From Pseudorhodoferax sp. Leaf274 (lineage in GTDB: Bacteria; Pseudomonadota; Gammaproteobacteria; Burkholderiales; Burkholderiaceae_C), in assembly GCF_001422445.1 (NCBI RefSeq), contig NZ_LMNA01000003.1, positions 1 through 64,000 of the forward strand: a stretch of DNA of 64,000 nt, given 5' to 3'. The notes beneath the pieces are model-generated. The model was given only the letters and a program-made list of their open reading frames with translations. It searched no databases and had not been told where the DNA came from. Of this stretch, positions 9,145 through 12,200 are shown piece by piece (position 1 is the stretch's first letter; every line of letters starts with the position of its first letter). The position numbers were made by a program, and so were the translations under genes.

Positions 9145-9435
9145 ATGCTATCCGGCGTGGCACAGAACGACGGATCAGCGGACATGCAAGGCTTGTGGCG
9201 GGTGCATCCCGATGCACGGCTGCGCATGCGTCATTGGGGCGATGAATCCGTGGTTTACCACGGCGCGTCGGGCAGCACGCACCGCCTGGCCCTGCCCGTG
9301 GGCGAGATGCTCGAACTGCTGCAGTCGGTGCAGGCGACGCCAGAGCAGATTTCCGAACGCATCGACCTGGACCGTGGCGATGTCGACCAGGTCTTGCAGG
9401 AGATGCTGCGTCTGGGCATCGCAGAGCGCCTGTGA
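9145..9435 (+). CDS. HPr-rel-A system PqqD-family peptide chaperone
   Basis: The 96-residue protein has a PqqD-like winged-helix fold: WRVHPDARLRMRHWGDESVV, then a beta strand with GSTHRLAL, then helices around EMLELLQ and the C-terminal QEMLRLGI. PqqD-like domains bind leader peptides of ribosomally made, modified peptides. In known genomes this subtype travels with an HprK-related kinase and a nucleotidyltransferase, exactly as seen here, and without a radical SAM enzyme. A start at 9184 (MQGLWRVHPD, 83 residues) is equally plausible and leaves more room for the divergent promoter. The stop overlaps the kinase start as GTGA. Confidence 0.82.
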   Translation: MLSGVAQNDGSADMQGLWRVHPDARLRMRHWGDESVVYHGASGSTHRLALPVGEMLELLQSVQATPEQISERIDLDRGDVDQVLQEMLRLGIAERL

Positions 9436-10331
9436 AGCTGGGCGCACTGTCGGACGAGGCGCTGCGGGCCTCGCTGCACCAGGGGCTGGTCCTGGAGACC
9501 GGCCCTTTCCGCTTCCGCATCCACTCGCGGACCGATGAGGTCTTCCATGGGTTACGGCGCCTCTACGCCGATTTTTCCCTGCCCGATCCGGCTTTTGCCG
9601 ACTACGTGGTCGAAGTCAATCGCGTGCATGGTCCCAGGGCCGTCTGGCGCCCGCAGATCAGTTTCAGCTTCGATGGCTACCAGCCCTTCAAGCCCTTGCC
9701 GGCCGACCACGCCTTCGCACTGCTTGAATGGGGCATGAACTGGTGCATCGGCGGGCAGGCGCACCATTACCTGCTCATCCACGCGGCGGTGCTGGAGCGC
9801 AACGGGCGCGCGGTCATCCTGCCGGGAGACCCGGGCGCCGGAAAAAGCACGTTGACCGCGGCATTGGCGCTGAGCGGCTGGCGCCTGCTTTCCGACGAGA
9901 TTGCGCTGATCGACCGCGACGACGGCCTGCTCGTGGGCTTGGCGCGGCCCGTCAACCTCAAGAATGATTCGATCGATATCGTGCGCGCCTTCTCGACGGA
10001 CGCCGTCTTCGGCGAACCCGCACGCGATACCCACAAGGGCACGGTCGCCCACTTGAAGCCGCCCACGGACAGCGTGCTCCATGTTGCACGGCGCGCGCGG
10101 CCGGCCTTCATCATCTATCCACGCTGGTCGGCCGATGCCCCGTGTGCGCTGACGCCGCGGCCGAAGGCCGATGCCTTCATGCACACCGCGACGCACGCGT
10201 TCAACTACGAGGTGTTGGGCAGCACCGGTTTCGACATGGTGGCGGCCTTGGTCGACCAGTGCGAATGCCTCGATTTCCGGTATGCGCAACTGCCTGATGC
10301 GATCGCGCTGTTCGAAAGCCTGGTGCGATGA
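9432..10331 (+). CDS. HprK-related kinase A
   Basis: The 299-residue protein starts with GTG inside the preceding stop region. Residues about 110-220 resemble the kinase core of HPr serine kinase/phosphorylase. The P-loop GDPGAGKST is at 132-140, a LLSDEIALID strand is at 152-161, and a conserved VNLKNDSI loop follows near 178. There is no phosphotransferase HPr gene nearby, and the N-terminal half does not match the normal HprK regulatory domain. It is therefore the dedicated kinase of the HPr-rel-A cassette, with an unknown phosphoacceptor. Both ends overlap neighbouring genes by 4 bases, so the three cassette genes are translationally coupled. Confidence 0.86.
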   Translation: MKLGALSDEALRASLHQGLVLETGPFRFRIHSRTDEVFHGLRRLYADFSLPDPAFADYVVEVNRVHGPRAVWRPQISFSFDGYQPFKPLPADHAFALLEWGMNWCIGGQAHHYLLIHAAVLERNGRAVILPGDPGAGKSTLTAALALSGWRLLSDEIALIDRDDGLLVGLARPVNLKNDSIDIVRAFSTDAVFGEPARDTHKGTVAHLKPPTDSVLHVARRARPAFIIYPRWSADAPCALTPRPKADAFMHTATHAFNYEVLGSTGFDMVAALVDQCECLDFRYAQLPDAIALFESLVR

Positions 10332-11386
10332 ATTGGCTGGACGCGCCTTTGCTGCGGGCGCTGCGCACGCCGGAGGCGATGGACGACTTCTCCGCGGTGG
10401 ACTGGCACCTGGCCATCAGCCAGGCGCGCAGCGCAGGACTGCTAGGCCGTCTCGGGTTGCTGGCCCGGGCGAGGGCTGACCGGCTGCGGCTGCCCGAAGG
10501 AGCAGACCGCCACTTCACCGCCCAGGATTGCATCGTGGCGCGCCAGCGCAATGCCGTGCAATGGGAGGTGCAGCAGATATCCGAGGCGCTGGAACGAACG
10601 GGCGCCCCCGTCATGTTGCTCAAGGGCGCCGCCTATGCCGCCAGCAACGGGCCGGCCGCCGCAGGACGAACCTTCAACGACGTGGACATCCTCGTGCCGA
10701 AGGCCCAGTTGGCCGATGTGGAGCACGCGTTGCACGTGCACGGCTGGCTCGTGGAAGCCAGCAGTGCCTACGACGAGCGCTACTACCGCCGGTGGATGCA
10801 TGAGCTTCCGCCCATGGTCCACGTGCAGCGCAGGACGACCCTGGATGTGCACCATAACCTGCTGCCCGAGACGGCACGCATCCGTACCAGGCCGGAGTTG
10901 TTGCTGGCGCAGGCCGTTGCGCTGACGCGCTGGCCGCTGATCCACGTGCCCAGCGAGGTCGACCAGATCCTGCATTCCGCATGCCACCTGTTCCATGAGG
11001 GGGAGTGGGAAAACGGTTTGCGCGACCTCAGCGACCTGCACCTGCTGTTGAGTGCTTTCCACATGCAAGGCGGTTCGGCGCAGCAACTCATCGAGCGAGC
11101 GCGTGTCCTGAATCTGCTGATGCCCCTGACCTACGCGGTGCACTGCGCGGCCACTGTGTTCCATACGCGCTTGCCCGATGGATTGCAGGAAGGGTTGCCG
11201 GTCACGAGGGCCTGGATGCAGACCACGTTCCTGGCAGCGATGTCGGGGGCACATTCCACCTTGCGCACTGCTGGCGCCTCTGCGGCGCAGTTCGCCTTGT
11301 ACGTGCGCAGCCATTGGCTTCGCATGCCCATGCATCTGCTGATACCGCATTTGCTGCACCAGGCGACCACGCAACGTGAGGCGTGA
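10328..11386 (+). CDS. HPr-rel-A cassette nucleotidyltransferase (PF14907-like)
   Basis: The 352-residue protein carries the signature of uncharacterised nucleotidyltransferases: LLKG at 97-100, Arg 114 and NDVDILV at 117-123. The two Asp residues of the DVD triplet are the probable metal ligands of a Pol-beta-type active site. The rest is helical with several conserved His residues (HELPPM, DVHHNL, HSACHLFHEGEWENGLRDL). It overlaps the kinase by ATGA and ends the three-gene overlapping unit. It probably transfers a nucleotide or nucleotide-linked group to a cassette partner; this is inferred from fold alone. Confidence 0.82.
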   Translation: MNWLDAPLLRALRTPEAMDDFSAVDWHLAISQARSAGLLGRLGLLARARADRLRLPEGADRHFTAQDCIVARQRNAVQWEVQQISEALERTGAPVMLLKGAAYAASNGPAAAGRTFNDVDILVPKAQLADVEHALHVHGWLVEASSAYDERYYRRWMHELPPMVHVQRRTTLDVHHNLLPETARIRTRPELLLAQAVALTRWPLIHVPSEVDQILHSACHLFHEGEWENGLRDLSDLHLLLSAFHMQGGSAQQLIERARVLNLLMPLTYAVHCAATVFHTRLPDGLQEGLPVTRAWMQTTFLAAMSGAHSTLRTAGASAAQFALYVRSHWLRMPMHLLIPHLLHQATTQREA

Positions 11387-11400
11387 GGCATGAGTTGTGT

Positions 11401-11421
11401 GTCGATGTATCTTACATCGAC
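11401..11421. promoter_or_regulatory. Perfect 9-bp inverted repeat upstream of the cysteine-rich gene
   Basis: GTCGATGTA, a 3-base spacer, then TACATCGAC form an exact palindrome 15 bases after the nucleotidyltransferase stop. A TATAAA hexamer follows at 11426-11431 and no T-run is present. It could be an operator or a processing hairpin controlling the gene at 11527. Confidence 0.5.
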
Positions 11422-11526
11422 CTGTTATAAATTCGGGGGGATGTGAATAGCTTGCTGATTTGAAAGGAATTTTTTTTCGGCATGCGGCTTGCTTGGGATA
11501 CAAATACATACATGCAAGATCCATCC

Positions 11527-12135
11527 ATGACGAACACCACCCGGCCTCAAAATTCTGCCCGTCGTCGCCTGGCGAAGGGCGCTGTGGCGGCACCTGCCGT
11601 GATCGCATCGTTGACGGCCAAGAACGCGCTGGCCGGCAAATACCATTGCACGGTGTCCGGCAAGGCGTCCGGAAACATGTCCGGCCATGGCACCGACAAG
11701 GATTGCCGCAATGGCGGTAATTCCTGTGCCACTTGGCAGCAGAAGTGCAAGGGCGACACGACGACCTTCAAGAGCTGTTTCGGCACGGACCTCGATTACA
11801 AGGGCAAGACGGAGACCACCGGGTACGGATGGCGGGCTGTTTCCAAGCACAAACGTGCCAGTACCAACTGCCGTGAAAGCACCTTCGGTTCGGCGACCTT
11901 CGATCAGATCCTGAACGGCGAAGACTATTCGGCAAGCCCGATTTCAGACCCTCCGTTGCTGCTGGCTGCCACGTGTGCCTACCTCAACGCCAAGAATTTC
12001 AGCGACTACCACATCACGATGGCTTCAGCGGTCGGCCTGTACAAGGGCGCGCTTGGCATCACGCCTTTCAAGACCGGCACGAGAACGTGGACGGCGGACG
12101 AATGCCGGGTGCATCTGCAGGCGATGTTCTACTGA
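11527..12135 (+). CDS. Unrecognised exported eight-cysteine protein, possible HPr-rel-A cargo
   Basis: The 202-residue product from MTNTTRPQNS has three arginines (12-14), then LAKGAVAAPAVIASL, and a signal-peptidase-like ALA at 34-36. This looks like a twin-arginine or Sec export signal. The remainder has eight cysteines (41, 60, 67, 74, 84, 115, 150, 193), five of them within 44 residues, in a Gly/Ser/Thr/Lys-rich context. I recognise no domain. In-frame ATGs at 11482 (preceded by AAGGAA) and 11512 are alternative starts. It lies 140 bases after the HPr-rel-A cassette on the same strand and has its own terminator, so a functional link is likely but unproven. Confidence 0.7.
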   Translation: MTNTTRPQNSARRRLAKGAVAAPAVIASLTAKNALAGKYHCTVSGKASGNMSGHGTDKDCRNGGNSCATWQQKCKGDTTTFKSCFGTDLDYKGKTETTGYGWRAVSKHKRASTNCRESTFGSATFDQILNGEDYSASPISDPPLLLAATCAYLNAKNFSDYHITMASAVGLYKGALGITPFKTGTRTWTADECRVHLQAMFY

Positions 12136-12167
12136 CCGCCGTCCGTCGCTGCGGCCGAACATGATCA

Positions 12168-12200
12168 CGCCGCCGGGGCTTCAGCCCTGGCGGCGTTTTT
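12168..12200 (+). terminator. Rho-independent terminator after the cysteine-rich gene
   Basis: A 12-bp G+C-rich stem (12168-12179 with 12184-12195, one G-T pair) with a TTCA loop is followed by five T residues. It lies 32 bases past the stop at 12135 and overlaps the last codons of the convergent cobA gene. Confidence 0.85.

Follow-up and report, generated by a model that had tools for sequence, protein, structure and literature searches.

Phosphorylation of serine by kinases resembling HPr kinase (HprK) has already been described for ribosomally synthesized and post-translationally modified peptides (RiPPs); the papers on it and on related systems are cited here from excerpts of their text. 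In paeninodin, the C-terminal serine is phosphorylated, and the protein PsmN adds a hexose to phospho-serine, the involvement of a host enzyme not being excluded (PMC9266682). The linear polyphosphorylated peptides (LPP) of Bacillota, reported in 2026, come with a RiPP recognition element (RRE), an HprK-like kinase and a nucleoside triphosphate (NTP) transferase; serine 3 of the core is phosphorylated, and the kinase LppK rejects the S3T substitution (PMC13381572). In another known system, the genes of PEP-CTERM proteins are preceded by a 17-base motif ending TTTACA and then by a sigma-54 site, with a spacer of 32–92 bases (mean 62.8) between them (PMC1569441). The cassette named HPr-rel-A is also known as a system in NCBIfam. 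Here we consider such a cassette and the exported protein encoded beside it at positions 9145–12135 of a stretch of 64,000 nucleotides, hereafter the window, from Pseudorhodoferax sp. Leaf274 (contig NZ_LMNA01000003.1, positions 1 to 64,000).

In our opinion, these genes probably form a RiPP-like modification system that serves one dedicated exported protein. This reading is built on the observed linkage of the cassette and a family of leader-bearing proteins, the conserved catalytic residues of the enzymes, an RRE-like profile and model, conservation of the leader and of serines, a promoter element, and co-occurrence with the exosortase XrtA in the bacterial family concerned.

The cassette and its adjoining leader protein

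The cassette consists of three plus-strand genes at 9145–9435, 9432–10331 and 10328–11386, in which successive genes overlap by 4 bases (GTGA, then ATGA). A sequence-only reading of the locus had assigned them to a PqqD-like protein, an HprK-related kinase and a nucleotidyltransferase, and each product indeed scores above the curated cut-off of its family. The PqqD-like protein (9145–9435) matches the HPr-rel-A PqqD family TIGR04353 with 38.0 bits (cut-off 35), while the Pfam PqqD model PF05402 does not match it; among 66 relatives, all match TIGR04353 at E ≤ 0.01 and 22 match the Pfam model. A profile of these relatives finds the lasso-peptide RREs TfuB1 (E 3e-4) and TbiB1 (E 1.8e-3). The AlphaFold model (predicted local distance difference test, pLDDT, 91.7) has two fold matches in the PDB at E ≤ 0.001, both of them TbiB1 chains, the better being 5v1v (E 3.2e-4, template modelling scores 0.64/0.68). 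By both profile and fold match, the protein is predicted to have the winged-helix fold of an RRE. Conservation of T-H in it is not claimed, because the loci for alignment A4 were those that passed a motif filter (69 of 80, of which 65 were used).

The second gene (9432–10331) encodes HprK-related kinase A, with 382.8 bits against TIGR04352 (cut-off 200). Residues H117, G135, G137, K138, S139, D155 and E156 are invariant in all 50 aligned kinases (alignment A1, 50 of 52 rows, L065 and L081 left out); the P-loop of the window's kinase is intact, as already noticed. H117, the P-loop and D155 are in register with the His, P-loop and Asp of the HPr kinase 1jb1 (E 6e-4), which we take to be catalytic in HprK. 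The kinase is not HprK itself, since it reaches only 21.2 bits against TIGR00679 (cut-off 240); the HprK of this genome lies elsewhere (C3:112371, 323.5 bits). The third product (10328–11386), an NTP_transf_5 protein with the nucleotidyltransferase fold, scores 169.6 bits against PF14907 (cut-off 31.2), and K99, G100, D118, D120, D173, H175 and H176 are invariant in all 78 aligned transferases.

After a gap of 140 bases there follows an open reading frame (ORF) at 11527–12135 for the exported leader protein, the proposed substrate. As first described, it has 202 residues, eight cysteines and a triple-arginine signal; it starts MTNTTRPQNSARRRLAKG and is without a convincing match in Pfam or NCBIfam: no Pfam family was matched, and its sole NCBIfam match is noise (E 0.027). 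Searches of the PDB, Pfam and NCBIfam with the whole family gave nothing convincing, and neither did a Pfam scan of 45 of its members.

The linkage of this protein to the cassette was studied in 200 genomes of the window's family, where a kinase over the TIGR04352 cut-off occurs in 49 genomes at 52 places. With the single window protein as query, relatives were found in nine of the 200 genomes (own included), all nine adjoining a kinase. The neighbourhoods of the other 51 places were scanned for the twin-arginine leader pattern and then with a profile. A same-strand member of the leader-protein family adjoins all 52 cassettes; eight of the 52 members lay outside the profile used and scored 1e-18 to 1e-31. 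A search of the same genomes with alignment A2 (45 of 46 rows, L043 left out; up to 15 candidates scored per genome) gave matches at E ≤ 0.001 in 58 genomes. All 54 places at E ≤ 8.3e-10 adjoin a kinase and fall in exactly the 49 kinase genomes, the remaining nine genomes having weak matches only. In these 200 genomes, no strong match was found away from a cassette. Homologues of the protein thus occupy the same genomes as the cassette and not mostly others, in agreement with the proposal that the two belong together. As the whole arrangement is conserved in other genomes, a chance origin is excluded.

At five of the 22 weaker places (2.5e-8 to 8.7e-4), the C-terminal module is matched within a giant ORF; the other 17 matches start in the leader region, and two of these (in G029 and G128) extend beyond the leader. 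The C-terminal module is repeated within the three giant ORFs examined: PGxWKNH...AALLNA recurs in L202, L203 and L204 (G052:C63, G011:C8 and G168:C56), and these ORFs lie away from any over-cut-off cassette.

Outside the family, a scan of a species collection with the kinase alignment gave 345 relatives, and the best 80 of them were taken as named loci (L185, L173 and L196 repeat family-sample loci). They belong to Thiobacillus, Roseateles, Massilia, Noviherbaspirillum, Thioalkalivibrio, Methylococcaceae, Gallionella, Rhodobacterales and Magnetospira, among others. A leader-family member adjoins the kinase in 79 of the 80; at the exception, L191 from a metagenome-assembled genome of Nitrosospira, the pqqD-like gene is also unrecognisable by eye. 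In a phylum sample of 299 genomes, 51 have a kinase over the cut-off, and all 51 neighbourhoods were read. A protein with a twin-arginine leader adjoins 44 of these cassettes, many of the matches being weak and covering the leader only. The leader gene of L217, together with its pqqD-like gene, is oriented divergently to the kinase; the leader ORF of L226 is cut short. The cassette is therefore not consistently paired with some different small gene. When the 299 genomes were searched directly with alignment A3 (75 rows plus the window; eight of 83 left out, namely L133, L145, L154, L160, L171, L192 and both of L196), 28 of them gave a match; in two (G477 and G368), the match is to the C-terminal module and the kinase is below the cut-off. 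At G168:C3:126347-127209, a leader-type match is closely followed by a kinase-like one that, at 59.6 bits, falls short of the TIGR04352 cut-off; perhaps this is a divergent second cassette beside the normal one of that genome.

The position of the exported gene right after the cassette, noted at first sight, holds for the window and is not typical. The leader gene lies upstream of the kinase at 49 of the 52 family places, being located after the transferase only in the window and two loci of the same genus, and it is downstream in six of the 80 named loci; in most loci it precedes the pqqD-like gene. Two leader proteins per locus occur after the transferase at L122, L123 and L126 and before the pqqD-like gene at L075 and L090. 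The own terminator ascribed to the exported gene can be seen as a terminator-like hairpin with a 13-pair stem followed by a T-run at 12167–12196 of the plus strand, and such sites are equally common in shuffled DNA (two found, 2.6 expected). Alternative in-frame ATG codons of the leader-protein ORF are found at 11482 and 11512.

Leader, conserved residues and the proposed modification

Conservation was counted in 129 entries, corresponding to 126 distinct proteins of about 110–260 residues. The alignment brought in a few class II-like members, and eight proteins known by profile only (L042, L044, L051, L053, L056, L057, L087 and L088) are not among the 126. The twin-arginine leader, residues 1–36 with a predicted A-x-A cleavage site assigned by eye (11527–11634), contains R12 in 125 and R13 in all 126 proteins; columns with a majority residue read RRR, L, G, V, L, A, S, P, V, A. 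PF10518 matches one of 45 leader proteins, weakly (E 0.06). After the predicted cleavage site lies the Cys-Ser motif from C41 to S52 (CTVSGKASGNMS, 11647–11682), a candidate modification site. Position 41 is Cys in 124 of the 126 proteins, position 44 is Ser in 120 (Thr in four), position 48 is Ser in 119 (Thr is not one of the four residues most frequent there), and position 52 is Ser in 113 of 123 (Thr in two); the spacing ahead of this third serine varies. Towards the C-terminus, L153 and N154 are each found in 115 proteins. The eight cysteines, which had been taken as a hallmark, do not define the family, as their number ranges from 1 to 11 across 46 proteins; apart from the nearly invariant C41, the cysteines vary. 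The conserved candidate target is the serine motif rather than the cysteines.

At least three sequence classes can be told apart among the mature parts in the phylum sample; what unites them is the type of leader. Class I has the Ser motif and a PGYW...AxLNA module; class II proteins are short and end in SCW-x-S-F or near it; class III, found at five loci that all belong to a single family (f38), shows a stretch like CEIPVPDPGRAG and the end TCFASLQMPRG. L240 and L241 are among the few proteins that fit no class. Besides the leader, the classes usually share a cysteine shortly after it. If the RRE reads the leader, one would expect the leader to stay constant while the bodies attached to it change, beside an RRE that is itself constant; this is the pattern seen, and it points to the leader as the recognised part.

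Tat (twin-arginine translocation) substrates with dedicated leader-binding chaperones are known, and the leader is the shared part here as well, so the PqqD-like protein might hold the leader until the protein has folded, with the kinase only regulating this chaperone or the release of the protein. We regard such an explanation as highly improbable, because fold and profile place the PqqD-like protein with the RREs, which present substrates to the enzymes that modify them, and the nucleotidyltransferase would be left without a role.

As for the modified residue, S44, S48 or S52 may be inferred as the target, and the near absence of threonine at these positions fits a serine-only kinase. The cassette might also modify the leader protein elsewhere, at Cys41, at the C-terminal serine of class II or by nucleotidylation, the Ser motif being structural. 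The conservation of Cys41 equals that of the serines; most of the class II and III proteins that were read, all without the Ser motif, likewise have a Cys close to the N-terminus of the mature part; and the class II end recalls the phosphorylated C-terminal serine of paeninodin, as the excerpts describe it (PMC9266682). HprK-type kinases described in RiPPs act, according to the excerpts, on serine (PMC9266682, PMC13381572), and the Ser positions show almost no exchange for Thr; we therefore consider modification elsewhere in the leader protein to be unlikely.

According to the RiPP-like reading that we prefer, the precursor would be bound in the cytoplasm by the PqqD-like RRE through its twin-arginine leader, and the HprK-related kinase would phosphorylate at least one serine of the C..S..S..S motif at the mature N-terminus. 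The NTP_transf_5 protein may then cap the phosphate with a sugar or nucleotide, a suggestion taken from PsmN and the weakest step of the scheme. The modified protein would be exported by Tat, and signal peptidase would remove the leader. The idea of the neighbour as a PqqD-bound and modified substrate, put forward in the sequence-only reading, thereby gains support from the linkage and from the leader as the probable recognised part; its emphasis on cysteines was misplaced, and the binding, modification and export themselves stay conjectural.

Promoter element and exosortase setting

The upstream regions of leader genes were searched for motif 1, written as TGTCGGAWWWWTTTACA, together with the sigma-54 consensus, allowing at most 6 mismatches. 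The set comprised 121 regions, after removal of L133, L160, the long ORF of L196, duplicate upstream sequences and genes preceded by too short a stretch of DNA. This two-part element was found before 53 of 121 leader genes and 13 of 882 other ORFs of the same loci (p 9e-42), a count that is partly circular because motif 1 was written from the upstream regions themselves and not from the published logo. An independent check is given by the best control hits: all 12 precede ORFs with PEP-CTERM-type tails, 11 with PEP and one with SEP, as judged by eye. On the reverse strand, the element was present in none of the 121 regions. The sigma-54 site alone was found before 63 of 121 leader genes, compared with 67 of 747 other ORFs, three of 50 kinases and one of 89 transferases.

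The mean spacer before leader genes is 73.3 bases, above the published mean. Among the rows with at most 5 mismatches, 41 of 43 spacers measure 51–52, 60–64, 73–78 or 82–87 bases, about one helical turn apart; this clustering at intervals of about 11 bases (51, 62, 75, 85) suggests that the position of the activator is confined to one helical face. In the window, the predicted PrsR site, that is, motif 1 (TGTCGATGTATCTTACA, 11400–11416, plus strand), ends CTTACA and has 4 mismatches to the consensus used; after a spacer of 61 bases there follows motif 2, the sigma-54 −24/−12 site (CGGCATGCGGCTTGCT, 11478–11493, plus strand, 2 mismatches), which overlaps the in-frame ATG at 11482. The window element thus comes in at the search threshold, and two loci of the same genus have it with 5 mismatches. 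A looser pattern, TGTCGNNNNNNYTTACA, has two exact places in the window's own genome, namely that of the window and one before a PEP-CTERM ORF. Motif 1 alone was rejected as a genome-wide marker, as its one-mismatch places in this genome (18+10) do not exceed those of the control (18+12); four of the 27 such places outside the window precede PEP-CTERM ORFs. A perfect inverted repeat at 11401–11421, GTCGATGTA-TCT-TACATCGAC, encloses motif 1 in the window.

XrtA over its cut-off was found in 51 of the 200 family genomes, and 46 of the 49 cassette genomes have it (Fisher p 8e-36); the three others are 74, 94 and 90% complete. Five XrtA genomes of the family are without the cassette, and none of the 40 family genomes with only an exosortase match below the XrtA cut-off carries it. 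In the phylum sample, 15 genomes have both cassette and XrtA, and five have XrtA only (p 4e-9). Related genomes are not independent, and these p values are descriptive only. Within the phylum sample, XrtA accompanies the cassette in 15 of its 51 genomes, and the cassette occurs in 15 of the 20 genomes with XrtA; a universal tie between the two is therefore rejected. XrtA lies 13–23 kb from the kinase in six family genomes and on a different contig in the window's own genome, which also has PrsR (734.8 bits) and 19 matches to the PEP-CTERM model TIGR02595. None of the 19 is located in the window, so the leader protein is not a PEP-CTERM protein.

Neighbours within about 6 kb were surveyed at 132 loci (131 and the window, some of them repeated), the clusters being named from one example each. 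Recurrent clusters include an HtrA-like protease (28 loci), PrsK (24), PrsT (22), PrsR (18) and an XrtA-type export protein (14). Of the examples, that of PrsK is a truncated ORF with 281.6 bits, below the cut-off of 300, that of the HtrA-like protease has no match over a cut-off, and the others are over theirs. This HtrA/trypsin-like protease (e.g., at L070, L072, L166 and L186) often stands directly after the transferase or slightly before the leader gene, and it is a possible processing partner.

The recurrence of exopolysaccharide and PEP-CTERM genes near cassettes, together with the tracking of XrtA in the family, would also be consistent with a kinase and transferase acting on another target, such as a sugar or lipid used in making exopolysaccharide, the leader protein being only co-regulated cargo or an effector of the pathway. 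This seems to us quite improbable, as the RRE-type protein, a leader binder coupled to the cassette, would then have no peptide to partner with; moreover, 36 of the 51 phylum-sample cassettes are found without XrtA, yet the leader protein is kept at 44 of the 51.

The RiPP-like system with a dedicated exported substrate has its own difficulties. The same 36 cassettes without XrtA weigh against it, and so does the lack of an adjacent leader protein at seven of the 51 (L218, L219, L225, L228, L231, L232 and L238). At L231, the contig is cut, and three of the seven genomes (G279, G322 and G461) carry a leader protein elsewhere, which in G322 and G461 adjoins a pqqD-like gene. The latter two pairs (L245 and L247, at G322:C91 and G461:C3) are on a different contig from the kinase; the pair of RRE and precursor can thus be separated from it. 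The Ser motif is not universal, being absent from class II and III proteins and also from family members such as L055 and L059. The model of the leader protein (76 rows) has a pLDDT of 68.6 and no PDB match at E ≤ 0.001, the Tat-type leader could be conserved for export alone, and the window promoter, with 6 mismatches in total, exactly the threshold, is borderline. Finally, deletion of lppN, the LPP transferase gene, made no detectable change in the test host, according to the excerpts (PMC13381572).

In XrtA-positive proteobacteria, including the window genome, sigma-54 and PrsR probably switch on the precursor gene alongside those of PEP-CTERM proteins, which makes the exopolysaccharide matrix the most likely place of action of its product. 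Loss of the pepA transcript has been shown in an rpoN1 mutant, and the floc-forming Aquincola tertiaricarbonis RN12 is genetically tractable (PMC9850573). A broader and only tentative idea, which we hold to be less likely than the modification system itself, is that the XrtA/PEP-CTERM matrix system has in HPr-rel-A its arm for covalent modification: a phospho-serine, possibly sugar-capped, would be placed at the protein N-terminus before Tat export and would be the point at which the protein is attached to exopolysaccharide, and the leader would serve both as RRE recognition and export signal. If the modification system holds, the PEP-CTERM/exosortase exopolysaccharide system, which matters for activated-sludge flocs and biofilms, would gain a protein-modification branch, and RRE-guided HprK-like phosphorylation, so far a matter of peptides in Bacillota, would take in secreted proteins of full size in alpha-, beta- and gammaproteobacteria. 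With a precursor, leader, candidate residues and a candidate regulator named, the substrate of HPr-rel-A becomes directly testable.

Comparison with described systems

The window has the same kinase and PqqD-like protein as HPr-rel-A (TIGR04352 and TIGR04353), both over the curated cut-offs. No substrate is named in the NCBIfam matches; the present analysis adds the leader-protein family and the promoter. With the XrtA/PEP-CTERM system, which includes PrsK, PrsR and PrsT, the locus shares the type of promoter element and, at the level of the family, the co-occurrence in genomes (PMC1569441, excerpts); it differs in that the leader proteins are not PEP-CTERM proteins.

The tailoring of paeninodin and pseudomycoidin (PadeK, ThcoK, PsmK and PsmN) likewise combines an HprK-like kinase acting on Ser with a nucleotidyltransferase-like protein. 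The kinases of lasso peptides need a His-Lys-Asp-Asp set, to which the present kinase comes close, its fourth residue being Glu (E156) (PMC9266682, excerpts). No lasso macrolactam synthetase or B2 peptidase was recognised by eye among the recurring neighbours, with no profile search aimed at them, and the filing as a lasso peptide was not adopted.

The closest likeness is to LPP, as far as its excerpts describe it: a discrete RRE, an HprK-like kinase and an NTP transferase are common to both, as is a precursor with a constant N-terminus and a variable C-terminus; in LPP, the phosphorylated Ser3 of the core lies beside the leader, and the clusters are often situated in capsule loci. LPP clusters also have an SpI-like peptidase, an MsbA-like transporter and a YxxP-type leader, whereas a twin-arginine leader on a protein of ~110–260 residues is found here. 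Neither peptidase nor transporter was recognised in the 22 most recurrent neighbour clusters within ~6 kb, where six examples were scanned against NCBIfam and the rest judged by eye, so that a rare gene could escape; the YxxPxVLxHQ leader motif is not among the majority-residue columns of the 126 leaders. Filing as LPP is rejected for lack of these cluster genes and of the leader motif. The system would work like LPP and is regarded as a variant, not a member of that group.

A search of the open-licence literature yielded nothing on HPr-rel-A, on an HprK-related kinase with PqqD or on a proteobacterial HprK with an RRE, and nothing on an HprK-like kinase with twin-arginine, an exosortase with HprK or the NCBIfam names; for PEP-CTERM with PqqD, it gave only PMC3023750, whose excerpts are unrelated. 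The cassette as an NCBIfam system, serine phosphorylation by HprK-like enzymes in RiPPs, hexose transfer by PsmN and LPP were known before. New, within this literature, are a precursor family dedicated to HPr-rel-A, the classes into which it falls and a link between it and the PrsR/XrtA regulon.

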